A stretch of 64,000 bases of DNA from Desulfosporosinus nitroreducens (GTDB lineage: Bacteria > Bacillota > Desulfitobacteriia > Desulfitobacteriales > Desulfitobacteriaceae). The translations under genes and the position numbers were made by a program. The stretch spans positions 186,001 to 250,000 of the forward strand of contig NZ_JAMHFY010000004.1 of the NCBI RefSeq assembly GCF_023897015.1, written 5' to 3'. The notes beneath the pieces were generated by a model, which saw only the letters and a list, made by a program, of their open reading frames with translations, had not been told where the DNA came from and did no database searches. Of the stretch, positions 22,510 to 37,206 are shown piece after piece; positions within the stretch are counted from its first letter, which is position 1; each line of letters begins with the position of its first letter.

Positions 22510-22538
22510 TTGACAATAGGTTACACTTTACTTATTCT
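22510..22538 (+). promoter_or_regulatory. Promoter of the two-component operon
   Basis: TTGACA (22510-22515) and TATTCT (22533-22538) are separated by 17 bases, 39 bases ahead of the kinase start. It begins immediately after the family 2 repeat. Confidence 0.75.
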
Positions 22539-22576
22539 TGGCATGTACTTCAAATGATCATATTGGAGGGAGAACC

Positions 22577-24184
22577 ATGCGGATGGGTAAACCTTTTTTC
22601 AGTTTGCAGACCATCATGACTTTGCTTGTTTGCGGTGTTGTAGCTCTATCTTTAGCCGTAACCGACATCCTAATTAGTCAGGAAGTTGCCGATAATACGC
22701 AAAAGAATCTAGCTAATAAAGCGAAGAACATTGCCCGAATTGTTGCCCACTCGCCTCTTGTGATTGAAGCTCTCAATGGGCAAAGAGCCGATACGGAAAT
22801 ACAACCCTTTGCGAATGAAATACGACAGATCACCTCCGTCGAGTTTGTTGTTGTCATGGATATGAAAGGGACAAGAAAGTCTCATCCGGATATTAACAAA
22901 GTTGGACAACCCTTTGTGGGAGGAGACGAAGGGGAGGCCCTAAAGGGTCAGGAATACTTTTCCTATGCAAAAGGAACTCTAGGCATGTCCTTACGTGCGT
23001 TTACCCCCATCGTCACTTCCACTGGTAAACAGGTTGGGGCTGTTGCCGTAGGGATCTTGCTTAACGATGTGAACCAGGCTGTCGCTCAGAGTCGGCAAAT
23101 TATTTATATTAGTATTGGCTTCGGATTATTGGTTGGAGTTATTGGTGCCTTATTCTTAGCCCGAAAAATTAAAAAAGTAATGTTTGGTTTAGAACCGAGG
23201 GAAATTGCCAAAATGCTCGAAGAACGCAGCGCCATGTTAGAATCCGTAAGGGAGGGTATTTTGGCTATCGACAATGATTCCCGTATTACACTCTCGAATG
23301 CTGCCGCCTTGCGGCTATTTAATCGAGCAGGGATTTTAGGTGACCTGGTTGGGAAAAAAATAACGGACTGTGTACCCAACACACGTATGCTCCATGTGCT
23401 GGAAACAGGAAATGCGGAATTAGATCAGGAACTCGATCTGTTTGGAATAACGCTCGTAACAAACGTTATTCCACTCTGTGTAAACGGCAAAAGTGTCGGG
23501 GCAATTGCTACTTTCCGAGATAAAACTGAAATAAAACAAATGGCTGAAGAATTAACAAGTGTGCTCCTCTACGCTGAGGCCTTGCGCTCACAGGCCCATG
23601 AATTTATGAATAAATTGCATGTTATTCTAGGCATGGTCCATATGAAGTACTATGACCAGCTTTCCACGTACATCAGTCGGATCGCTCACCAACATCAAAG
23701 TGAAATAGGTTTTATTACAAGACATATTAAAGATCCGGTATTGGCAGGCTTTATTTTGGGGAAAATGAGTTATGCCCGAGAGGTTGGGGCAGAGTTAGTA
23801 CTGTTCGAAGAATGCTTTTTACCTGAACCGGCAGACCCAGAAGTGATTCACGAAATCGTTACCGTGTTTGGGAATTTAGTCGATAATGCTCTGGAAGCCG
23901 TGGTTGATTGCCCATTTAAACGGATTGAGGTAAACTTTTCCTATGATGAAGGTGTTTTAAGCATAGAAGTGAGGGACACTGGGCCAGGTATTAACGATGA
24001 GCTAAAAAGCCAAATCTTTACTAAAGGCTATTCTACAAAGGGACCTAACAGGGGCTTGGGACTGTACTTAGTGAAGCATAGTCTAGAAAAACTTAATGGA
24101 AAAATCGAGATACTTTCAGAGGAAGGTCAAGGAACTCAATTCAAAGTATCTTTACCTTATAAAAGCAAGGATGAAATGGAATGA
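22577..24184 (+). CDS. DcuS/CitA-family sensor histidine kinase
   Basis: The family senses C4-dicarboxylates or citrate outside the cell. The protein (535 residues from the ATG at 22577, GGAGGG site) has a transmembrane helix near the start, an extracellular PAS/Cache domain whose ligand motif RKSHPDINKVGQPFVGGDE matches DcuS/CitA, a second helix near residue 172, a cytoplasmic PAS domain, the H-box SQAHEFMNKLHVILGM and an HATPase domain with NLVDNALEAV and DTGPGI. Adjacent dicarboxylate genes fit malate or fumarate as signal. It overlaps the regulator gene by four bases. Confidence 0.92.
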   Translation: MRMGKPFFSLQTIMTLLVCGVVALSLAVTDILISQEVADNTQKNLANKAKNIARIVAHSPLVIEALNGQRADTEIQPFANEIRQITSVEFVVVMDMKGTRKSHPDINKVGQPFVGGDEGEALKGQEYFSYAKGTLGMSLRAFTPIVTSTGKQVGAVAVGILLNDVNQAVAQSRQIIYISIGFGLLVGVIGALFLARKIKKVMFGLEPREIAKMLEERSAMLESVREGILAIDNDSRITLSNAAALRLFNRAGILGDLVGKKITDCVPNTRMLHVLETGNAELDQELDLFGITLVTNVIPLCVNGKSVGAIATFRDKTEIKQMAEELTSVLLYAEALRSQAHEFMNKLHVILGMVHMKYYDQLSTYISRIAHQHQSEIGFITRHIKDPVLAGFILGKMSYAREVGAELVLFEECFLPEPADPEVIHEIVTVFGNLVDNALEAVVDCPFKRIEVNFSYDEGVLSIEVRDTGPGINDELKSQIFTKGYSTKGPNRGLGLYLVKHSLEKLNGKIEILSEEGQGTQFKVSLPYKSKDEME

Positions 24185-24888
24185 TTAAGGTCCTAATCGT
24201 AGAAGATGACCCTATGGTCTCTGAATTTAATAGACGTTACCTTGAGCAAGTCGGTGGCTTTGAGTTAATAGCAATCGCTCCTTCAGTTGCTGACGCCTTG
24301 CACATTTTGGATCATCAAGAAATCGACTTGATCTTACTTGATATCTTCATGCCAGGAATGAACGGATTTGATTTATTGGCACAGATTCGAAAGCTGGGTC
24401 AAGGGGTCGATGTTATTGTCGTATCCGCTGCTTGTGATAGTCAAAGCATCAAGAAGGCTTTGCGGTATGGAGCGGTTGATTATTTAATTAAACCTTTTGA
24501 ATTTGAACGTTTCAAAACGGCTTTATCCGCTTACCGGGAATGGGTAAGTATGACGAAGGATCAAGAGAAACTAAGCCAAGCAGAATTGGATATTCGGATG
24601 CTTCACCCAAACCCGCTAACCGTACCCAGTGAATTGCCCAAAGGGCTTACCCGTAACACCTTAAAGACCGTATGGGAAAACATACAAGAAACGAAGACAA
24701 GCTCATTTTCGACAGAAGAAATGGCTAAACGTGTTGGGATTTCACGGGTTTCGATGCGCAAATATCTAAGCTTTCTCACGGATATTGGAGTAATCGAGAT
24801 GGAGGTTATCTATGGTTCAATCGGCCGACCGATCTATCAACATCGATGCCTAAAGCCTGAAAGTGATTTAATAAAAAGGTATTTCTAA
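24181..24888 (+). CDS. DcuR/CitB-family response regulator
   Basis: A receiver domain (residues 1-120) with the acidic pocket VEDD, the phosphoacceptor Asp in LILLDIFMPGMNGFD and the conserved Lys in DYLIKPFEF is followed by a linker and a C-terminal helix-turn-helix (FSTEEMAKRVGISRVSMRKY), the CitB/DcuR layout. The ATGA overlap with the kinase indicates a cognate pair. Likely targets are the divergent dicarboxylate operons at 25-35 kb; I could not define its binding sites. Confidence 0.93.
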   Translation: MIKVLIVEDDPMVSEFNRRYLEQVGGFELIAIAPSVADALHILDHQEIDLILLDIFMPGMNGFDLLAQIRKLGQGVDVIVVSAACDSQSIKKALRYGAVDYLIKPFEFERFKTALSAYREWVSMTKDQEKLSQAELDIRMLHPNPLTVPSELPKGLTRNTLKTVWENIQETKTSSFSTEEMAKRVGISRVSMRKYLSFLTDIGVIEMEVIYGSIGRPIYQHRCLKPESDLIKRYF

Positions 24889-24942: not shown

Positions 24943-25809
24943 CTATCTGCCTGCAAGCAAGATCCCGGTGTTAACAATATGACGTTTCATCCCCAGTTCC
25001 TCGGCTGTATAGCCGAGCGCTAATCCTATCAACTGAGTCAGGTGAAGGGCCGGGATATCATCATTTGCATTTACGGCCCGCTTGCCTTCAGGTTGATACA
25101 TATCCAGTTGCATTTGACAGAGCGGGCATGGGGTTACCGTACAGTCGGCACCACCCTCAAGTGCACTCAAGTTAATAGTTCCCGTTGCTTTCATTGTATC
25201 TTCTTTGCTAGTAAAGACAGAATGGAAACCACAGCATTTCAAACGAGCATCAAACAGTACTGGCTCAGCACCTAAAGCCCGGATCAAATCTTCAAGAGAG
25301 TGCGGATTGGCATGGTCCTCAAAGCCCATAATGTGGGGCGGACGGAGAATGTGACAACCATAGTACCCTGCCACTTTCATTCCCTTGAGTGGCCTTTTGA
25401 CCTTTTTCTTCAGTTTATCCAGCCCGTAGTCTTTAATCAACATCCACAGAAAGTGGGTTACTGGGCTTGTCCCTGTATACTCGAGACCGGCTTGTTGCAA
25501 GGCCGGATTGACAAGCTCTTTTGCTCCATTATCCAATTCATGTTTAGCTTCCCGAAGCATCAAGGTGCACGTATTACATACGGTAAGAACGGGCAACCCC
25601 ATTTTTTCTGCTAAAGCGATGTTTCTAGCATTAACTGCAAGAGCTGCAGTTTTATCATAATCCTGAAGGTGGGATCCTCCGCAACAGGTCCAGCCTGGGA
25701 TCTCGACAAGCTCGATTCCTAAGGCCTGGGCTACTTTCGTTGTCGCGGTATAAGCTTCCTGGCTGGCGCCTTCTAAGACGCAGCCCGGGAAAAATGCATA
25801 TTTCATCAT
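24943..25809 (-). CDS. CCG-domain subunit of fumarate reductase/succinate dehydrogenase (SdhE/HdrB-like)
   Basis: This 288-residue protein has two CCG domains: [11 protein letters not shown] with VCNTCTLML, then [11 protein letters not shown] with [10 protein letters not shown]. In HdrB such motifs bind non-cubane [4Fe-4S] clusters, and in the archaeal/epsilonproteobacterial SdhE type this subunit stands in for the cytochrome b anchor. It has no clear transmembrane helix. The gene overlaps frdB by four bases, so it is the last gene of the operon. Its electron partner (quinone, thiol or another donor) is not evident from sequence. Confidence 0.87.
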
Positions 25810-26837
25810 TTCGCTGCCTCCTTAGGTCTTTGGATGTCTGGATTAGTATGAGCCTCAGAACGTTTCGCGTTAGCTATATTTCTTGCCTTTTCAGACTCCT
25901 TAACGGCCAGAATAATGGCACGCACTTCAGCCACTTCCTTAATCGGTTTCGGGAACATATGCGCTGGATTCAATTTCCCTTTGCTCATGAGGCGAAGCGC
26001 AAACGGTATATTGCCAATCGATTTGACGAGTCCGTCCGTCTTGACTGCCATCATGCCTTCATTTAAGCGACCTGTCTTCTGGATGTCATCTAGGAAGGCT
26101 TTTGCGTGGCGAACCCCTGAATGCTCCACAAGTCCTTTAGCAATCGCCTCTTGCCGAAGGTTAGAGATATCCTCAGCCGGAGATAGGCCTTTTGGACATT
26201 TAGTAACGCATTCTTGACAATGCTGGCATTTCCAAGCCCCATGGTTAATGGCTGCACTTAGCCGTTCAACCGGGTTCTTGTCTCGCGAATCAGCCACAAA
26301 TCGTTGGGCCTTGGTGAAAACAAAGGGCTCCAAGAAATCGCTGTTATTCCCACTCAGTTTATTACACTCTGAAGCACAGCAACCACAGAGAATACAATCC
26401 GAGTTCTTGTTAATTTTCTTAAAGTCCTCAGGACTTTGACGGCAGCCTGATTCTTTGTTAAATTCATCCTTTGGCATGAGCCAAGGTTTCAGTTCAGCCA
26501 GTCGCTCTGCCTTCGGTTCCCAGTCCACGACCAAGTCACGAATCAGTTTAAAGTTTTGGAGAGGTTCAAGAATTAAGGTGTCGCTCTCCCAACGTTTAAG
26601 CATTTTATCCAACGGTGTCTCACAGGCGAGCGTGGCCTGGCCGTTCACCCGTACTGCGCAGGCACCACAAATGGCATGACGGCAAGAGGCCGTGAAATTT
26701 AAACTGGGGTCAAGAGTCTCTTTAATCTGGATGAGGGCCCAAAGAATCGTTTTTCCGGGTTGATGGTCGAGTGTATATTCCTGGATCCAGCTTTCTTGAC
26801 CATCAAAACGTTGGATTTTAAACGTTATCTTGCGCAT
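25806..26837 (-). CDS. frdB: Iron-sulfur subunit of fumarate reductase/succinate dehydrogenase
   Basis: The N-terminal plant-type ferredoxin domain carries CRHAICGAC and a distal Cys for [2Fe-2S]. The C-terminal part has [11 protein letters not shown] for [4Fe-4S] and [15 protein letters not shown] for the third cluster. In classical SdhB/FrdB the third motif has a hydrophobic residue where this protein has its second Cys, and holds [3Fe-4S]; four Cys in CxxCxxCxxxCP spacing suggest [4Fe-4S] instead, as proposed for SdhE-type enzymes. At 343 residues it is about 100 longer than classical SdhB, with an unassigned C-terminal extension ending in a charged tail. Confidence 0.92.
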
Positions 26838-28546
26838 TAGTACTTCCTTTCTACCGGTTGGTACTTTGTAACAACCACCGGTCGATATGAGAGTTTATAC
26901 TGCGATCCTTGTTTCGAAATGATCGTGTGTTTTAAGAAGTTCTCGTCATCCCGATTCATATAGTCTTCCCGCTTATGAGAACCTCGGCTTTCTTTACGGT
27001 TCAAAGCTCCCATCACGACGGCTTTTGCTACTAAGAGCAAGTTCCCCAGTTCGGTGTATTGGACAAATGCGGTGTTATAAATCTTAGAAGGATCTCCGAC
27101 CACACATTTCTTATACTCGGCAATGAGTTCGTCAATGATTTGAGTCGCTTTTTTCATCTCACTTTCTTTGCGGAAAACCCCGACATTGTACCACATAGTT
27201 TCCGAGAGACGATCCCGGATCGAAGCAACAGATGGTCCATCTGTACGGGCTACTGTACTACTAAAGCTGTTCTCCCACTGACGGACAAGTTCATTTACTT
27301 TTTGTTCACTGCCAAAGTCCAATGTTTTGGCCGCTTCAGCCGCCGCTTTTCCAGCGACCTTACCGAACAGAACCACATCAGCCGTTGAGTTTCCACCGAG
27401 ACGGTTGGCCCCATGGATCGATAGGCACGCACATTCACCCGTTGCATATAACCCTTTAAGATCGGTTCCACAGGTTCTGTAATCCGTGACATCGATACCG
27501 CCCATGGAGTAGTGGCAACTTGGGCGGATTGGAATCGGTTGGTCAATCGGGTCAATCCCTTCAAAGGTGATAGCGAGGTCTCTGATTTGCGGTAGACGTT
27601 CTAAGATCTTTTCCCGTCCTAAGTGCCTCAAGTCGAGCTGCACATAGGCCTGCATTCCTTCCCCAAAACCGCGACCCTCTTTAATTTCTATTTCAATGGC
27701 TTGTGAAACGAGGTCGCGGGTTGCAAGTTCCAACTTCTCCGGGGCATACCGTTTCATGAAACGTTCCCCTTGATTGTTGAGGAGATAGCCTCCTTCTCCG
27801 CGGCACGCTTCCGACATCAAAATTCCTGTGCCCGCCAGACCCGTCGGGTGAAACTGAACAAACTCGGGGTCTTTCAAGGCCACTCCAGCTCTTAACGCTG
27901 CAGCCATTCCGTCACCGGTCGAGGCGAAGGGGTTGGTGGTCCGCAGCCAGTACATCCGCCCAGCTCCACCGGTTGCTAGTACTACGGTTTTAGCCATGAT
28001 CGGCTGAATTTCTCCTGTTTTCATATCCATTGCAACCACACCCGTCACCCGATCGTTTTCAACCACAAGATCTAACAGGAGCCATTCGACCAGGACATTG
28101 ACACCGTTTTTGAGACATTGCTCGTATAGGGTATGGAGAATGACCGACCCGACCTTGTCCGAAGAGTAACATGTCCGAGGAGCAGATTGTCCTCCGAAGG
28201 GACGTTGGGCAATGGTACCACTTTCAAGTCGTGAGAAGGGAACGCCGTAATAGTCTAATTCACGAATCGTTTCAGGCATATGCTCACAAAAAAACTCAAT
28301 GGCATCCTGGTCTCCGAGGAAATCGCTTCCTTTGACCGTATCAAACGTGTGTTTTTCAATGGTGTCGGTTGGGTCTGCGTTTTTCAAAACAGCATTGGTT
28401 CCACCCTGTGCACAACAGGTTGCAGAACGTGTTGGGAAAACCTTAGACATCAGAGCAACGTTAAGGCCCTGCTGCGAGGAGGCGACCAGAGCCGCCTGCA
28501 TACCAGACCCACCGCTTCCGATGACGAGAATATCGAACTTAAGCAT
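26837..28546 (-). CDS. frdA: Flavoprotein subunit of fumarate reductase/succinate dehydrogenase, lacking the FAD-linking His
   Basis: This 569-residue subunit has the FAD-binding GSGGSGMQAALVA at the N-terminus, substrate residues in VQFHPTGL, RGEGGYLLNNQGERF and PSCHYSMGG, and HGANRLGGNSTAD near residue 380. Classical SdhA/FrdA attach FAD covalently through the His in RSHTVxAxGG; here the aligned sequence is RSATCCAQGG, so Ala42 replaces His. No Tat signal is present, so it is cytoplasmic. In E. coli FrdA, loss of this His is known to spare fumarate reduction but impair succinate oxidation, so I infer a fumarate reductase. It overlaps frdB by one base. Confidence 0.92.
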   Translation of the reverse strand: MLKFDILVIGSGGSGMQAALVASSQQGLNVALMSKVFPTRSATCCAQGGTNAVLKNADPTDTIEKHTFDTVKGSDFLGDQDAIEFFCEHMPETIRELDYYGVPFSRLESGTIAQRPFGGQSAPRTCYSSDKVGSVILHTLYEQCLKNGVNVLVEWLLLDLVVENDRVTGVVAMDMKTGEIQPIMAKTVVLATGGAGRMYWLRTTNPFASTGDGMAAALRAGVALKDPEFVQFHPTGLAGTGILMSEACRGEGGYLLNNQGERFMKRYAPEKLELATRDLVSQAIEIEIKEGRGFGEGMQAYVQLDLRHLGREKILERLPQIRDLAITFEGIDPIDQPIPIRPSCHYSMGGIDVTDYRTCGTDLKGLYATGECACLSIHGANRLGGNSTADVVLFGKVAGKAAAEAAKTLDFGSEQKVNELVRQWENSFSSTVARTDGPSVASIRDRLSETMWYNVGVFRKESEMKKATQIIDELIAEYKKCVVGDPSKIYNTAFVQYTELGNLLLVAKAVVMGALNRKESRGSHKREDYMNRDDENFLKHTIISKQGSQYKLSYRPVVVTKYQPVERKY

Positions 28547-28550
28547 GATG

Positions 28551-29105
28551 TCACCTCTTATATTGTTGTTGTCCGACTTCGTAGAAATTTCGTCCTTCGC
28601 TGTCTATAGCGACGATTGCCGGGAAATCTTCGACAATAAGCCTTGCATGAGCTTCCGAGCCCAGATCTTCATAAGCCAGGACTTCGTAACTCTTAATGCT
28701 CTTGGCAATGAGAGCTGCAGCACCACCGATCGCTACAAAGTAAACCGCGCCATGCTTTTTCATCGCTTCAACGACCTCTGCGGAACGATACCCTTTGCCG
28801 ATCATGCCACGAAGTCCTTGTTCAATTATTTTAGGGGCATAAGCATCCATACGACCACTGGTTGTGGGGCCGGCAGAGCCGATAGGCTGTCCTGGTTTTG
28901 CCGGTGCGGGCCCAACGTAGTAGATAATTTGATCCGTGAGATCCGTAGGCAGTGTTTCCCCGCGGTCAAGCCCTTCAACCATGCGTTTATGGGCCGCATC
29001 ACGGCCGGTATAAATCACTCCGGAGATTAAAACACTGTCACCTGCTTGGAGACTACGAGCCTTTTCCTCAGTTAAAGGAAGTGTTATGCGAATTGGTTCT
29101 GACAT
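28551..29105 (-). CDS. Class I fumarase, beta (C-terminal) subunit
   Basis: The 184-residue product matches the C-terminal domain of Fe-S hydro-lyases. YVGPAPAKPGQPIGSAGPTT and SGRMDAYAPKIIEQGLRGMIG are characteristic, and GAVYFVAIGGAAALIAKSI carries the catalytic region. It pairs with the alpha subunit to interconvert malate and fumarate. Tartrate dehydratase is a sister family, but operon context with fumarate reductase supports fumarase. It is 14 bases after the alpha gene and four bases before frdA. Confidence 0.9.
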   Translation of the reverse strand: MSEPIRITLPLTEEKARSLQAGDSVLISGVIYTGRDAAHKRMVEGLDRGETLPTDLTDQIIYYVGPAPAKPGQPIGSAGPTTSGRMDAYAPKIIEQGLRGMIGKGYRSAEVVEAMKKHGAVYFVAIGGAAALIAKSIKSYEVLAYEDLGSEAHARLIVEDFPAIVAIDSEGRNFYEVGQQQYKR

Positions 29106-29119
29106 TTTATAGCTACCCC

Positions 29120-29965
29120 CTACAGTTCAATTTCTGCATGCCGTGTGGCATGACAGTTGATGTTAATCGCAACGGGCATACAGGCAATATGGGTGGGATA
29201 ATACTCGATATTCACAGCTAGAGCCGTAACCCGTCCACCCAAACCTTGAGGACCGATGCCACTGTTATTGACAAGTACCAGAAGCTCTTGTTCCAAGGCG
29301 GCATAGTCTGGATGAGAGTTGCGCACCGTAAGTGGACGGGCGAGCGCTTTCTTGGAAAGGAATGCAGCTTTTTCCATGGTGCCGCCTACGCCAATGCCGA
29401 TGACGATCGGAGGGCAAGGATTAGAACCAGCAGCGGTAATGGTATCAAGCACGAACTTTTTCACAGCTTCAACACCGTCTGAGGGCTTGAACATTTTCAA
29501 GGTGCTCATGTTTTCACTGCCGCCGCCTTTCGGAGCGAAAACTATTTTAATCTTGTCTCCCGGAACAATAGAAACGTGCAGCATTGCCGGGGTATTATTT
29601 TTGGTGTTCACACGATCAAACATTGGCTCTCCAACGATCGATTTACGCAAGTACCCTTCCGTATATCCTTTCGCAACCCCAGCATTAACGGCATCCTCCA
29701 AATTACCGCCGATGATGTGGACATCCTGCCCAATTTCCATAAAGATGACGGACATTCCAGTATCTTGGCAGATCGGACGCTCCTCGTCTCTCGCAATGCA
29801 AGCATTTTTAATAATTTGGCCTAAGATGTCTTTACCAAGCGGCGATTCTTCTTTTTCCTGACCTGAGACCAAGGCATCAAACACATCGCTCGTTAGATAG
29901 TAGTTAGCATCAACCGCAAGTTTGGCGATAGCCTCTGTAATTTGTACGGCTTCAATTGTACGCAT
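29120..29965 (-). CDS. Class I fumarase, alpha (N-terminal) subunit
   Basis: From the ATG at 29965 (AAAGGGG ribosome site) the product is 281 residues. It matches the N-terminal domain of Fe-S fumarase/tartrate dehydratase: IKNACIARDEERPICQDTG with the first cluster Cys, then APKGGGSENMSTLKMF and GSNPCPPIVIGIGVGGTMEK, and HIACMPVAININCHATRH near the end. The [4Fe-4S] cluster would be oxygen-sensitive, fitting an anaerobe. An upstream in-frame extension to 30037 overlaps the transporter gene and lacks a ribosome site. Confidence 0.91.
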   Translation of the reverse strand: MRTIEAVQITEAIAKLAVDANYYLTSDVFDALVSGQEKEESPLGKDILGQIIKNACIARDEERPICQDTGMSVIFMEIGQDVHIIGGNLEDAVNAGVAKGYTEGYLRKSIVGEPMFDRVNTKNNTPAMLHVSIVPGDKIKIVFAPKGGGSENMSTLKMFKPSDGVEAVKKFVLDTITAAGSNPCPPIVIGIGVGGTMEKAAFLSKKALARPLTVRNSHPDYAALEQELLVLVNNSGIGPQGLGGRVTALAVNIEYYPTHIACMPVAININCHATRHAEIEL

Positions 29966-29988
29966 CGTTTTATCCCCTTTCAATTTTC

Positions 29989-31392
29989 CTACCAAAGCCC
30001 GAGAACTTTCCACCACATGGAACCTAGACCGACCCAAATGATCAGGTTAACTATCGATGATATAAATCCGAGTTTCCACCATGTTCCTTGATCCACATAA
30101 CCCGCACCAAAGTAAATAGGAGAAGGACCCGCAGCATAGTGTGTCAAGGACATACAGAGATTTGACATAAAAGCGAAGGAAAGTGCCACCAGATAAGCAG
30201 GCGCGCCAGCGGTTACTGCCACCGAAGCGAAAGCAGCATACATTGCTGTAATGTGGGCAGTTAAACTTGCAAATCCATAGTGTGCATACATATAAACGAC
30301 GATGAGGATTAAGAATGCCCAAATCCAAGGAATTCCGGCAATGCTTGCACCGACGGTCTTGGCAAACCAAGGAATAAAACCAAGTTTGGAGAGATTATCC
30401 GCCAGTGCGACCAGTGCACCCATCCACACTAGAGTGTCCCATGTGCCTTTTTCAGCAAGGATTTCTTTCCACTCAATAGCCTTAAACATCAGCATTACGG
30501 CAACGCCGAGCATCGCTACGATTGTGGCATCAATCTTCGTGAACTGTGATGTTCCCCAGAGAATCAGTGCACTGATAAAGACAAAGGCCACAACTTTTTC
30601 TCCGTAACTCATCGAGCCCATCTTAGCCAGTTCTCTAACAGCCAATTCTTTAGCTTCGGGTGTTTTCTTAATTTCAGGCGGATAAATTTTGTAAAGAAGA
30701 TATGGGATAACGATTAAGGAAATAAGACCAGGGACAATTGCAGCAAGGGCCCAGAGACCCCAAGTTAGATTAACGTTAAGTGTTTTCGCAGCAAGTAAAG
30801 CAACCAACGCATTACCTGCCATAGACGTCAGGAACATCGCAGAAGTAATAGTGTTCCCTTGATAAGCTGTTTGCATGAGGTAAGCCCCAATTTTACGCGA
30901 AGAGGTTTCAGGTTCTGAACCGAACGCAGTAGCCAAACTTCTGACAATCGGGAAGATAACTCCACCAGCACGAGCAGTATTAGAAGGGGTTGCAGGGCTA
31001 AGAATCAAATCACTAAGCACAATGGTATATCCGAGTTTTAACGTGCTGTCACCGAACGCACGAATGAGGGTGTACGCAATACGGAGACCCAATCCTGTTT
31101 TTACAAAACCAATCGCAAATATGAACGCAGAAACGATGAGCCAAATTATGCTATTCGAGAAACCAGCTAAAGCATCTGCCGGTTTAAGCACACCGACAAG
31201 AGCGGTAAAGGTCACACTGATAAACGCAAGAGCACCGATCGGTAGGGGTTGGAGTATAAAGCCCAGAATTGTAGCAACAAAGATTGCAAAGAGATGCCAA
31301 GCTGGCGCTTTTAATCCCATCGGAACAGGCATAAACCAAATCAACATACCGACTAAAATTGGAATCAAACCACGAACCAGCTTATTATTCAA
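29989..31392 (-). CDS. DASS-family dicarboxylate transporter
   Basis: This 467-residue membrane protein of the divalent anion:Na+ symporter family (CitT/TtdT/SLC13-like) has about 12 hydrophobic segments. The two SNT-type motifs are visible: SPATPSNTARAGGVIFPI near residue 135 and SLTHYAAGPSPIYF near 420. CitT-type members exchange an incoming di- or tricarboxylate for succinate. As first gene of the fumarase-fumarate reductase operon it may import malate/fumarate and export succinate. The start is TTG at 31392, seven bases after AAGGGGAGAA. Confidence 0.9.
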   Translation of the reverse strand: MNNKLVRGLIPILVGMLIWFMPVPMGLKAPAWHLFAIFVATILGFILQPLPIGALAFISVTFTALVGVLKPADALAGFSNSIIWLIVSAFIFAIGFVKTGLGLRIAYTLIRAFGDSTLKLGYTIVLSDLILSPATPSNTARAGGVIFPIVRSLATAFGSEPETSSRKIGAYLMQTAYQGNTITSAMFLTSMAGNALVALLAAKTLNVNLTWGLWALAAIVPGLISLIVIPYLLYKIYPPEIKKTPEAKELAVRELAKMGSMSYGEKVVAFVFISALILWGTSQFTKIDATIVAMLGVAVMLMFKAIEWKEILAEKGTWDTLVWMGALVALADNLSKLGFIPWFAKTVGASIAGIPWIWAFLILIVVYMYAHYGFASLTAHITAMYAAFASVAVTAGAPAYLVALSFAFMSNLCMSLTHYAAGPSPIYFGAGYVDQGTWWKLGFISSIVNLIIWVGLGSMWWKVLGLW

Positions 31393-31843: not shown

Positions 31844-31965
31844 CTCTTACTTTAGTTATATTTTGCTTTCTTTAGTTATAAAACAGTTAACATAATTAAT
31901 TAAACTGTTTAAATTGTTTGAAAAAACTTAATATGTGGAAGAAAAGAAATTCAGGAGGTGCTTCT

Positions 31966-33321
31966 ATGAGTTTGGCTATGAAAAAGGAAGTCCCAAATTC
32001 CAATTTATCTGGGAACAAGGAAATCTCATCTTCCAGTATTTTCTCCAAATTGTCAAGCGTAAAAGTCGGTGTTCTTCCCTTACCTCTCTATCTGATCTTG
32101 GCAGGGATCATTTTTGCTGCGTCTATGTACGGTCAACTTCCTGCAGATATGATCGGCGGCTTTGCGGTCATCATGGTTATGGGTATCCTTCTCGGAGATA
32201 TTGGGCTTAGAGTCCCCATTTTAAAAGAAATTGGCGGCCCTGCCATTTTGGCTATTCTTGTTCCATCTACTATGGTCTTTTACAATTTAATTAATCCTTC
32301 AGCCTTAAAAGCTATTACAGCTATCATGAAAACATCCAATTTCCTCTATTTTTATATTTCGGTTTTAGTCGTCGGCAGTATCCTTGGTATGAATCGGAAA
32401 GTTCTTGTTCAAGGGTTTGCGCGCATGTTTGTTCCTCTCATTGTTGGAACAGCTGCCGCTATTTCAGCCGGGTTACTCGTCGGTACTCTGTTTGGTTACT
32501 CCATTCACCGCACATTCTTTTATATTATTATCCCTATTGTCGGGGGAGGTATTGGGGAAGGTATACTTCCACTTTCTCTGGGTTATTCGGCTATTTTAAA
32601 TATACCCCAAGAAGCTCTTATCGGCCAACTTATTCCGGCGGCCGTTATTGGTAATATCGTCGCAATTGTATGCGCCGGATTATTAAAACGTTTAGGGGAA
32701 AAGAAACCTGAGCTTACCGGGAACGGTGTATTGGTAAAAACCGGTGATGACTCAGAAATCTTAAACGCCAAGGGCATGGCGGATAAACCGATCGACTTTC
32801 CGCTTATGGGAGCAGGTATTCTCATGGCTTGTGCCTTTTTCATCTTCGGTAAAGTAGCGAGCCCGTTTATCGGAATTCCAGGCGCAATTATTATGATTTT
32901 CGCCGCAGCCATCGTGAAGTATTTAAATATAATGCCCGCTAAAATGGAGCAAGGTTCGTTTCATCTGTACAAATTTGTATCTTCAAGTCTCACCTGGCCT
33001 TTGATGGTCGGTTTGGGTGTACTGTACACCCCATTGAAAGATGTCATCGCTACCGTAACTATTGGATACCTTGTGGTCTGTGCTTCTGTAGTTATAGCCA
33101 TGATCTCTTCCGGATATTTCATTGGTCGCTTTATGAACATGTATCCCATTGAGTCCGCTATTGTCACTGGGTGCCATAGTGGTCTGGGGGGAACAGGAGA
33201 CGTCGCTATTCTTTCTGCTTCCAATCGGATGGAATTAATGCCTTTTGCCCAGATCTCCACCCGAATTGGCGGCGCCTCGATGATTGTTCTTGCGACTATA
33301 TTAATAAAGCTCTGGCATTAA
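31966..33321 (+). CDS. 2-hydroxycarboxylate transporter (2HCT family; malate/citrate)
   Basis: From the ATG at 31966 (AGGAGGTG site) the product is 451 residues with about 11 transmembrane segments and two glycine-rich GGxG re-entrant loops: IPIVGGGIGEGILPLSLGYS and TGCHSGLGGTGDVAILSA. These match CitS/MaeN/CimH, Na+- or H+-coupled transporters of citrate and malate. The neighbouring malic enzyme points to malate. The first 16 codons of the longer open frame are excluded because the ribosome site lies within them. Confidence 0.92.
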   Translation: MSLAMKKEVPNSNLSGNKEISSSSIFSKLSSVKVGVLPLPLYLILAGIIFAASMYGQLPADMIGGFAVIMVMGILLGDIGLRVPILKEIGGPAILAILVPSTMVFYNLINPSALKAITAIMKTSNFLYFYISVLVVGSILGMNRKVLVQGFARMFVPLIVGTAAAISAGLLVGTLFGYSIHRTFFYIIIPIVGGGIGEGILPLSLGYSAILNIPQEALIGQLIPAAVIGNIVAIVCAGLLKRLGEKKPELTGNGVLVKTGDDSEILNAKGMADKPIDFPLMGAGILMACAFFIFGKVASPFIGIPGAIIMIFAAAIVKYLNIMPAKMEQGSFHLYKFVSSSLTWPLMVGLGVLYTPLKDVIATVTIGYLVVCASVVIAMISSGYFIGRFMNMYPIESAIVTGCHSGLGGTGDVAILSASNRMELMPFAQISTRIGGASMIVLATILIKLWH

Positions 33322-33650: not shown

Positions 33651-33741
33651 GCATTCTAAAATAAGAACTTCTAAAATGCGGATCAGTTGCTTACCAATGT
33701 AATTTAAGGCATACCAAATGAGAAATCAGGAGGGTCTAACA

Positions 33742-34929
33742 ATGGGCAGTATTCAGGAACGAGCCTTAAAACTCCATAAAGAACTGGTAGGGAAACTCGA
33801 AGTCATTAGTAAAGCAGAACTAGATTCTGCTGACGATTTAAGCCTGCTTTATACTCCAGGGGTGGCAGAGCCTTGTAAAGTAATCGCTGAAAATCCGGAC
33901 GCAGCCTTTGACTATACTGGTCGGGGTAATATGGTTGCTGTAGTATCTGATGGTACAGCAGTGTTAGGTTTGGGTGATATCGGCCCCCTAGCAGCATTGC
34001 CTGTAATGGAAGGAAAATGTGTCTTATTTAAGAAGTTTGGGGGAGTCAATGCGTTTCCCATCTGTTTAAATACGAAGGACGTAGATGAAATAGTTCGGGT
34101 CGTTAAGGCCTTGGAACCTAGTTTTGGCGGGATAAATCTGGAGGACATTTCTGCACCTCGCTGTTTTGAGATTGAAGCAAGACTGAAAAAGGAAACCAAC
34201 ATCCCCATCTTCCATGACGACCAGCATGGTACAGCCATTGTCGTATTAGCGGCACTCATCAACGCATTAAAGGTTGTTAATAAAAAAATCGATGAGATTA
34301 AATTGGTGCTTAACGGAGCAGGCTCCGCAGGAATAGCTATTACTAAATTATTGTTGCAAGCGGGTTTGAAAAATTCAATTATGGTCGATCGTGCAGGCAT
34401 GCTTTGCACGGGTGAACCTTGGATGAATCCGGCTCAGAAAGAGATGGCAGAACTAACAAACCATGCAAAACTAAAAGGCTCCTTAGCTGATGCTCTGGTG
34501 GGGGCTGATGTCTTTATTGGGGTTTCGGCTCCAGGTGTACTGAATGGCAAAATGGTAGCCACTATGAATTCCGGCTCAATCATTTTTGCTATGGCAAATC
34601 CTACCCCGGAAATATTCCCAGAAGAAGCCTTAGGTGCTGGAGCGGCGGTTGTTGGTACAGGCCGTTCTGACTATCCTAATCAGGTAAACAATGTCTTGGT
34701 TTTTCCAGGTATCTTTAGAGGCGCGTTAGATGTCCGAGCTAAAGATATTACGGAAGAAATGAAGCTCGTCGCCGCCCATGCGATCGCAGGAATCATATCT
34801 GCTGAAGAGTTAAATGCTGAATATATCATTCCAAAGGTTCTTGATCCCCGAGTAGCAGCTATAGTTGCTGCCGCAGTTGCTGAAGCCGCTATTAAGTCAG
34901 GAAATTCGCGTCTATATAGAGATCTTTGA
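33742..34929 (+). CDS. NAD(P)-dependent malic enzyme
   Basis: This 395-residue short malic enzyme decarboxylates malate to pyruvate and CO2. The catalytic Tyr is in LYTPGVAEPCK, the metal site in NLEDISAPRCFEIE and FHDDQHGTA, and the Rossmann motif in LNGAGSAGIA. The fold has no C-terminal phosphotransacetylase domain. The start at 33742 follows AGGAGGG; an ATG at 33718 is less well placed. Downstream of a malate-type transporter it completes a malate-to-pyruvate branch. Confidence 0.93.
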   Translation: MGSIQERALKLHKELVGKLEVISKAELDSADDLSLLYTPGVAEPCKVIAENPDAAFDYTGRGNMVAVVSDGTAVLGLGDIGPLAALPVMEGKCVLFKKFGGVNAFPICLNTKDVDEIVRVVKALEPSFGGINLEDISAPRCFEIEARLKKETNIPIFHDDQHGTAIVVLAALINALKVVNKKIDEIKLVLNGAGSAGIAITKLLLQAGLKNSIMVDRAGMLCTGEPWMNPAQKEMAELTNHAKLKGSLADALVGADVFIGVSAPGVLNGKMVATMNSGSIIFAMANPTPEIFPEEALGAGAAVVGTGRSDYPNQVNNVLVFPGIFRGALDVRAKDITEEMKLVAAHAIAGIISAEELNAEYIIPKVLDPRVAAIVAAAVAEAAIKSGNSRLYRDL

Positions 34930-35259: not shown

Positions 35260-37206
35260 ATGAATAAGACTAAAAAAACCTTAGCTACCTTAGCCATCGC
35301 AGGTATGACCCTCAGCATGCTTCCTTTCAATGTATTTGCAGCAGGAACAGTCCCGCAACGCTTATCAGGAATAACTGCGGCAGAAACTGCTGTAGCAATT
35401 GCTGAACAAACTGGTTGGACAGGCTCTGCTATTTTGGCCTCATCTACTTCTTATGGCATGGTTGATGCACTGACTGCAGGACCGCTTGCCTCCTTCCTTG
35501 AAGCTCCTATCCTTCTGCAAGAGGCTGGTTCAGTTCTGAATGAAGCCACTAAAGCAGAACTTATTAAACTCGAAGTTAAAAAGGTTTATGTTACCAGTGG
35601 TACTGCGGTAATTAGTCAAGCAGTTTTAAACGAGCTTGCTGAAATGGATATTACGGTTGTTTCCCTTGGCGGAAAAGATCGATTCGAAACCTCTGTCAAT
35701 ATCGCTAATAAAATGGTGGAACTCGGTGCTTCAATAAGCAAAGTCGCAGTTGCTTACGGTTGGTTAAATCAAGATGCACTATCTATCGCCTCGATAGCTT
35801 CCGCTCAAACTCAACCAATTCTCTTAACAGAGGCTAATTCTCTTCCTGAAAGTGTTGAAGAGTTTCTGGCTGAAAATGAAAGTGTTATTGCAACGGATGT
35901 TATTGGTGGAACAGCTGTAATCAGTGAAACTGTCAAAGCTGAACTTCCTGGCTCTAACCGCTACTTCGGCAACACAGCCTATGATACGAACGTAGCAGTG
36001 CTTAAAGCCTTTGACGATGTTTTAGAGTATGATAATGTTTTCTTAGCAAATGGCGAAACTGCCATCGATGCTTTAGCTGGAGCTCCTCTGGCTGCTCAAT
36101 TCAATGCTGGTATTGTTCTCACTAAAGGCAATGCTAATGAAGGCACGGAATATGTGGGCAGTAAACTGTCTGCTACCAGTGTCATAACTGCTTTAGGCGG
36201 TACAGCCGTCATTCCTGACAGCGTACTTGCAGATCTGGTTGCAGCTCAAGCTGCAGCGGTTGCAAAAGCGGCAGCGATTGAGAAAACTGAGGGTATTGTT
36301 CAAGGTGAAGATGCTTCAGCCGTAACTGCTCAGGATCTCATTGATGCTGGTGTCACTGCAACTGATATTATCGCAGCCAACCTGGAAGCTTATCAAGATG
36401 CTATTTCCGCTGCAGATGAGTCAGCCCTTGACAGTACAGAAAAAATTCAACAACTGGTTACCGATGTCAACGCTGCTATAGAGGCTGCTGAGGCTAAAGC
36501 GGCTGCACTTGTAAAAATTGACGGTATTGTTCAAGATGAAGATGCTTCAACCATAACAGCTCAGGATCTCATTGATGCTGGCGTCACTGCAACCGATGTT
36601 ATCGCAGCCAACTTGGAAGCTTATCAAGATGCTATCTCCGCTGCAGACGACTCGGCTCTTGACTCCACCGAGAAGATTCAAGCAATGGTTACAGCTGTTA
36701 ATGCAACTCAAGCGGCTGTGGCTAAAGCCGCTGCCATCGAGAAGATTGACGGTATTGTTCAGGACGAAGATGCTTCAGACGTAACTGCCCAAGATCTTAT
36801 TGATGCCGGCGTCACTGCAACCGATGTTATCGCAGCCAACTTGGAAGCTTATCAAGATGCTATCTCCGCTGCAGACGACTCGGCTCTTGACTCCACCGAG
36901 AAGATTCAAGCAATGGTTACAACTGTTAACGAAACTGTAGCCGCTGAAGAGGCGGCGGTCATCAAAGCAGCTGCGATCCTAAAAATTGATGGGATTGTTC
37001 TAGATGCAGATGCTTCAAGCGTGACTGCTCAGGATCTCATTGACGCGGGTGTAGTTGCAGACGATGTTATCCCAGCGAACTTAGAGGCTTATCAAGATGC
37101 TGTTTCCGCAGCAGCAGACTCAACCCTTGACTCCACTGAGAAGATTCAGGATATGGTTACAGCTGTAAACGCAGCAGTAACCGCTGAAGCTGAGGTCCAA
37201 GAGTAA
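35260..37206 (+). CDS. Secreted CWB2-domain surface protein with C-terminal tandem repeats
   Basis: This 648-residue acidic protein begins with a signal peptide (MNKTKKTLATLAIAGMTLSM, cleavage near AFAAG). Residues 32-330 hold three CWB2 repeats (PF04122), recognisable by VTSGTAVISQAVL, VIGGTAVISETV and ALGGTAVIPDSVL, which bind anionic wall polymers. Residues 335-645 are four helical repeats of about 76 residues (ITAQDLIDAGVTATD, ANLEAYQDAISAADDSALDS). The composition is very low in aromatics and rich in Ala, Asp and Glu. The ribosome site GAGGAGG is strong. An S-layer or adhesive role is inferred. A 230-base AT-rich leader precedes it with no other gene. Confidence 0.88.
   Translation: MNKTKKTLATLAIAGMTLSMLPFNVFAAGTVPQRLSGITAAETAVAIAEQTGWTGSAILASSTSYGMVDALTAGPLASFLEAPILLQEAGSVLNEATKAELIKLEVKKVYVTSGTAVISQAVLNELAEMDITVVSLGGKDRFETSVNIANKMVELGASISKVAVAYGWLNQDALSIASIASAQTQPILLTEANSLPESVEEFLAENESVIATDVIGGTAVISETVKAELPGSNRYFGNTAYDTNVAVLKAFDDVLEYDNVFLANGETAIDALAGAPLAAQFNAGIVLTKGNANEGTEYVGSKLSATSVITALGGTAVIPDSVLADLVAAQAAAVAKAAAIEKTEGIVQGEDASAVTAQDLIDAGVTATDIIAANLEAYQDAISAADESALDSTEKIQQLVTDVNAAIEAAEAKAAALVKIDGIVQDEDASTITAQDLIDAGVTATDVIAANLEAYQDAISAADDSALDSTEKIQAMVTAVNATQAAVAKAAAIEKIDGIVQDEDASDVTAQDLIDAGVTATDVIAANLEAYQDAISAADDSALDSTEKIQAMVTTVNETVAAEEAAVIKAAAILKIDGIVLDADASSVTAQDLIDAGVVADDVIPANLEAYQDAVSAAADSTLDSTEKIQDMVTAVNAAVTAEAEVQE
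36270..37195 (+). repeat. Intragenic tandem repeat, four units of about 228 bp
   Basis: Units start near 36270, 36500, 36730 and 36960. Units 2 and 3 share an identical stretch of about 115 bases (from GGCGTCACTGCAACCGATGT). Identity at nucleotide level shows recent duplication or gene conversion. Confidence 0.9.

Follow-up and report, generated by a model that had tools for sequence, protein, structure and literature searches.

Alanine at the position of the FAD-linking histidine in a predicted one-way, E-type fumarate reductase of Desulfosporosinus nitroreducens

The SdhABE complex of Wolinella succinogenes, purified by Juhnke et al. (2009), is an 8-methylmenaquinol:fumarate reductase (MFR; SdhABE/MfrABE, from W. 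succinogenes and Campylobacter jejuni) in which Ala86 occupies the position of the histidine that links FAD (PMC2680327). The flavin of this enzyme was noncovalent, no covalent flavin being seen, and the complex reduced fumarate with benzyl viologen at 16.5 U/mg, while the transfer of electrons from succinate to methylene blue was below 0.01 U/mg (PMC2680327). One-way fumarate reduction with a noncovalently held FAD is thus already established in a relative of the enzyme described here. When Ala86 was changed to histidine (A86H), FAD became covalent and succinate oxidation was still absent (PMC2680327); hence, its one-way catalysis also depends on further features of the enzyme type. Covalent attachment raises the potential of FAD, which is lower in complex II engineered to hold the flavin noncovalently (PMC9557727). 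The missing histidine was reported in 2009 as peculiar, among SQORs, to the SdhABE of C. jejuni and W. succinogenes (PMC2680327). No report of noncovalent FAD in Negativicutes was found in the literature searched, and the papers on Quinella and Syntrophobacter discuss fumarate reductases but do not mention the residue at the flavin-histidine position.

The stretch of DNA analyzed here (the window; 64,000 nucleotides of contig NZ_JAMHFY010000004.1 of D. nitroreducens) carries frdA on its reverse strand (26837–28546). The gene encodes an FAD- and dicarboxylate-binding flavoprotein subunit of 569 amino acids, without any internal stop, which matched TIGR01812 with 782.7 bits (cut-off 567.3) as well as the Pfam families FAD_binding_2 and Succ_DH_flav_C. 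The N-terminus enters the FAD-binding sequence immediately (MLKFDILVIGSGG), and its inspection revealed neither a Tat signal nor an RR motif. Residue 42, within PTRSATCCAQGGTN, is alanine (codon GCA, 28421–28423, reverse strand), and not the flavin-linking histidine of canonical SdhA/FrdA proteins with covalent FAD. The segment PTRSATCCAQGG, which contains Ala42, was aligned by phmmer without gaps to the PTRSHT(G/V)xAQGG motif of solved SdhA chains ('fptrsatccaqgg' against 'yptrshtgaaqgg' in 6lum and 'fptrshtvsaqgg' in 1nek), and no alternative histidine was present around the flavin motif in the alignments inspected. The position, residue number and codon given for this replacement in a preliminary description of the locus were all correct. 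The codon GCA differs from both histidine codons in all three bases, so that a single-base error as the source of Ala42 is ruled out.

FrdA is approximately 45–50% identical to the solved chains, and its fold was therefore taken as fixed. The catalytic residues His233, Glu246, Arg277, His345 and Arg382, which we take to correspond to His232, Glu245, Arg287, His355 and Arg390 of E. coli FrdA, are present and were invariant in the 46 Ala-type proteins aligned. The residue taken as the equivalent of Thr244 of E. coli FrdA is a serine in this protein, and serine is also frequent at this position among His-type enzymes. Furthermore, two residues co-occurred with Ala42 in the alignment: Ser11 of the GxGxxG loop (28514–28516, reverse strand), found in 46 of 46 Ala-type and 1 of 30 His-type proteins, and Pro206, located before TGDG in the TTNP...TGDG segment (27929–27931, reverse strand), found in all 46 Ala-type proteins and in none of the 30 His-type ones. 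Both motifs are expected to touch FAD, and Ser11 and Pro206 may help to bind it noncovalently; they are, however, also plain markers of the clade.

Downstream of frdA lie the genes of two further subunits, both on the reverse strand. The iron-sulphur subunit, FrdB (25806–26837), was assigned by its match to NF042952, the model of the MFR iron-sulphur subunit, and by its cysteine positions: it has one [2Fe-2S] motif and two CxxCxxCxxxC motifs (residues 148–158 and 204–214), the second of which replaces the usual [3Fe-4S] site and corresponds to the second [4Fe-4S] cluster of E-type FrdABE complexes. The cysteine-rich HdrB/SdhE-like subunit, FrdE (24943–25809), matched NF042965 (MFR SdhE), TIGR03288 (HdrB) and, twice, the Pfam CCG family. 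The presence of a subunit with two CCG motifs, encoded beside the A and B subunits, is also that of an E-type complex, and FrdE is presumed to be its quinol-interacting membrane anchor.

FrdABE shares with the MFR the alanine at the FAD-histidine position, an iron-sulphur subunit with the second [4Fe-4S] motif, a CCG-type SdhE and, in the best tree, the same flavoprotein clade. In contrast, the MFR flavoprotein is periplasmic and bears an N-terminal Tat signal, a motif present in all 23 Campylobacterota Ala-type loci, and it is only about 46–51% identical to FrdA. The three subunits also scored under the MFR equivalog cut-offs (732 bits of 1100 for FrdA against NF042982, 379 of 600 for FrdB and 341 of 500 for FrdE). 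By sequence, the protein would therefore be a cytoplasmic, Tat-less relative of the MFR and not a strict member of it, either by cut-offs or by location. The canonical complex II and QFR enzymes (E. coli SdhA and FrdA) have the same fold family, substrate-binding residues and reaction chemistry, but they differ in the covalent His-FAD bond, the [3Fe-4S] cluster and the transmembrane anchors, in place of which FrdABE has the CCG subunit. Closest among the His-bearing relatives, at 61–64% identity to the FrdA of the window, are the FrdA proteins of Evansella, Anaerobacillus, Sporolactobacillus, a Clostridia MAG and two more Bacillota genomes. In the four named ones frdB and frdE follow downstream, and the motif RSHTGAAQGG is kept, so that covalent FAD is expected.

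Upstream of frdABE, on the same strand, are the genes for the beta (28551–29105; PRK06842, 308.7 bits, above cut-off; PF05683) and alpha (29120–30037; PRK06246, 406.3 bits, above cut-off) subunits of a class I, Fe-S fumarate hydratase, and for a DASS-family sodium/dicarboxylate transporter (29989–31392; TIGR00785, 438.8 bits, above cut-off). The alpha subunit probably starts further downstream than listed, since its match to PRK06246 begins at residue 25. The convergent neighbours on the forward strand encode a DcuS/MalK-type C4-dicarboxylate sensor kinase (22538–24184; PRK11086, 712.7 bits, cut-off 520) and a DcuR-like response regulator (24181–24888; PRK10430, 245.6 bits, just under the cut-off of 262). 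The whole locus thus reads as a putative module for C4-dicarboxylate uptake and fumarate reduction. The order transporter-fumarase-frdABE was kept in Sporomusa malonica (L014) and at three other loci (L239, L249 and L255), and the same order was found with a His-type FrdA in Evansella and Anaerobacillus. Besides this operon, the genome encodes a B-type, His-type SdhCAB with the motif RSHSVCAQGG; hence, this bacterium has a pair of enzymes that are expected to run in opposite directions. On the opposite strand to the fumarate operon, a CitS-type 2-hydroxycarboxylate transporter (31918–33321) and a malic enzyme (33718–34929) probably form a second, malate/citrate-using module adjoining it. Additionally, a predicted exported protein of 648 amino acids with a cell-wall-binding-like N-terminal part is encoded at 35260–37206, and contains four near-identical repeats of about 65 amino acids each (VTAQDLIDAGVTATDVIAANLEAYQDAISAAD...).

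The replacement of the histidine was neither unique to this genome nor new, being a conserved feature of Negativicutes and of the MFR; alanine was kept in homologues down to about 46% identity. The closest FrdA homologues (L181 and L182; 78%, both RSATCCAQGG) belong to one genus of another family in the same phylum, followed by those of a Negativicutes genome (L111, 74%) and of S. malonica (70%, also with alanine). An FrdA homologue was detected in 88 of 300 Negativicutes genomes, and 68 of the 70 genes inspected had alanine (RSATxxAQGG or RSASTMAQGG), the other two having threonine. The change from histidine to alanine is therefore widespread outside Campylobacterota and is the rule in the class Negativicutes, which are anaerobes; this distribution is new. 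Of 35 genomes tested, 14 (S. malonica and 12 other Negativicutes among them, plus one from outside the class) had the FrdA of this clade as the sole Succ_DH_flav_C protein found (E ≤ 1e-160 was used for close homologues within the own class, and E ≤ 1e-12 for this count). The plasmid collection contained only ordinary SdhA, below 60% identity.

Within its own class, no close FrdA homologue (E ≤ 1e-160) was found in 82 other genomes, among which were 29 from the same genus. Vertical inheritance in the class is thus unsupported, with a match in one of 83 genomes, its own. Since none of those 82 genomes had the operon, its horizontal acquisition is probable; its GC content (0.478, against 0.437 for the window) is a weak hint of foreign origin.

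In a tree of 129 rows, all Ala and Thr proteins formed one clade adjoining the six His-bearing FrdA proteins. In later trees, to which Campylobacterota were added and from which the motif columns were deleted, the Campylobacterota Ala-type proteins were placed inside the Ala clade, the Ala/Thr clade including the MFRs had a support of 97/94, and the branch joining the MFR to a Negativicutes group one of 96/95. The 42-row tree among these, which gave the support of 97/94, required a single change from histidine to alanine when the Thr row was left out. A single origin is therefore favoured by these trees but not proven, because the alternative of placing the MFR outside the clade of the Firmicutes was not rejected in an AU test (delta lnL 6.8, p = 0.36). 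This last result is what speaks for two independent losses of the histidine, one in the Firmicute FrdABE lineage and the other in the Campylobacterota MFR; such convergence is unlikely, given that the best motif-free trees nest the MFR inside the Ala clade and that Ser11 and Pro206 are common to all 46 aligned Ala-type proteins. We lean towards a history in which the covalent link would have been lost once in Firmicute FrdABE, become standard in Negativicutes, where the Ala-type protein is often the only one of the SdhA/FrdA type, and then been transferred to Campylobacterota, with the addition of a Tat signal and a periplasmic MFR as the outcome, and to the present genome, which has a His-type succinate dehydrogenase as well. 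In the tree, an FrdA with the motif RAATCMAEGG (L191/L248, genome G542) was the closest sister to the MFRs of Campylobacterota. Campylobacterota also contain Tat-less, His-type FrdA proteins (L208–L211, L213, L214 and L217; RSHTGAAQGG), which are 51–54% identical and lie outside the Ala clade.

The best explanation of the locus, to which we assign a probability of roughly 85%, is that FrdABE is a cytoplasmic, E-type (MFR-like), one-way fumarate reductase with noncovalent FAD, fed by the transporter and the fumarase. Malate or fumarate would be imported by the dicarboxylate transporter, malate would be dehydrated by the fumarase, and FrdABE would reduce the fumarate to succinate with electrons that enter at FrdE, probably from menaquinol or methylmenaquinol, and reach the FAD of FrdA by way of the three FrdB Fe-S clusters. 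As Ala42 replaces the histidine, FAD should be noncovalent and of low midpoint potential, and the enzyme would in practice work only as a fumarate reductase, leaving succinate oxidation to the separate His-type SdhCAB. An origin of the electrons in thiols or another soluble donor, delivered through FrdE as in the coenzyme M/coenzyme B thiol:fumarate reductase of methanogens (TfrAB), is distinctly improbable. FrdE does match HdrB (222.8 bits), and also TfrB in its C-terminal half, and genome G542 has frdABE and no detected UbiA-family prenyltransferase, which would be odd with a menaquinol donor. Nevertheless, FrdE scored higher with the MFR SdhE, the MFR is in the same clade as FrdA, and a UbiA-family gene was found in 33 of the 35 carriers tested, with three in the present genome, a result compatible with a quinol donor though no proof of menaquinone. 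TfrAB itself has an SdhA-like flavoprotein, an iron-sulphur subunit with an HdrB-like part and no transmembrane anchor, like FrdABE, but TfrB is a fusion and the window proteins scored lower with the models of TfrA (499.8 of 718) and TfrB (164.8 of 385); a coenzyme M/B system would not be expected in this bacterium.

Cysteine-linked flavins are known in other flavoproteins, and two cysteines, Cys44 and Cys45, follow closely after Ala42. A reversible enzyme with FAD attached covalently to another residue such as these is nevertheless very improbable, since the Ala-type homologues vary there (Thr, Gly, Ala, Ser or Cys, followed by Met or Cys) and the W. succinogenes MFR has no covalent flavin (PMC2680327); both cysteines were rejected as candidates for being unconserved. 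The chance of a decayed or mis-sequenced gene is negligible: the frame is full-length, the active site is conserved, alanine recurs in dozens of genomes and the codon is three changes away from histidine. The earlier view that the substrate-binding motifs are intact and the gene not decayed is thus confirmed. Its proposal of a one-way fumarate reductase is well supported through the purified W. succinogenes enzyme, but alanine alone is not sufficient to account for it, as the A86H variant illustrates. Ala42 accordingly marks the enzyme type without being the sole cause of one-way catalysis. Quinol and physiology may be the main determinants of flow direction, because His-bearing FrdABE sisters occupy the same transporter-fumarase operons.

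Should the Negativicutes enzymes prove to bind FAD noncovalently and to work one way, the direction of complex II homologues in fermenting bacteria could be largely predictable from the marker residue of the clade. The co-occurrence of a His-type and an Ala-type enzyme in the same genome provides a natural comparison for what sets direction besides the covalent bond, and the His and Ala sister enzymes of 61–64% identity provide a second one.

Among the Negativicutes, one Ala-type frdA (L146; G129:C1:9960–11333) had an in-frame TAA near residue 457, owing either to gene decay or to an assembly error. The two Thr-type genes (L250:4676–7059 and L251:4143–6567, from genomes G170 and G126; also L173 and L177) have the motif RSTTGCTGGG and belong to frdAB pairs lacking frdE. 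No UbiA-family gene was detected in G126, and in L250 the active-site motifs were altered too (RGAGAYL and VQGANRLGG). These Thr-type frdAB pairs may act on a different substrate or with a different electron donor.
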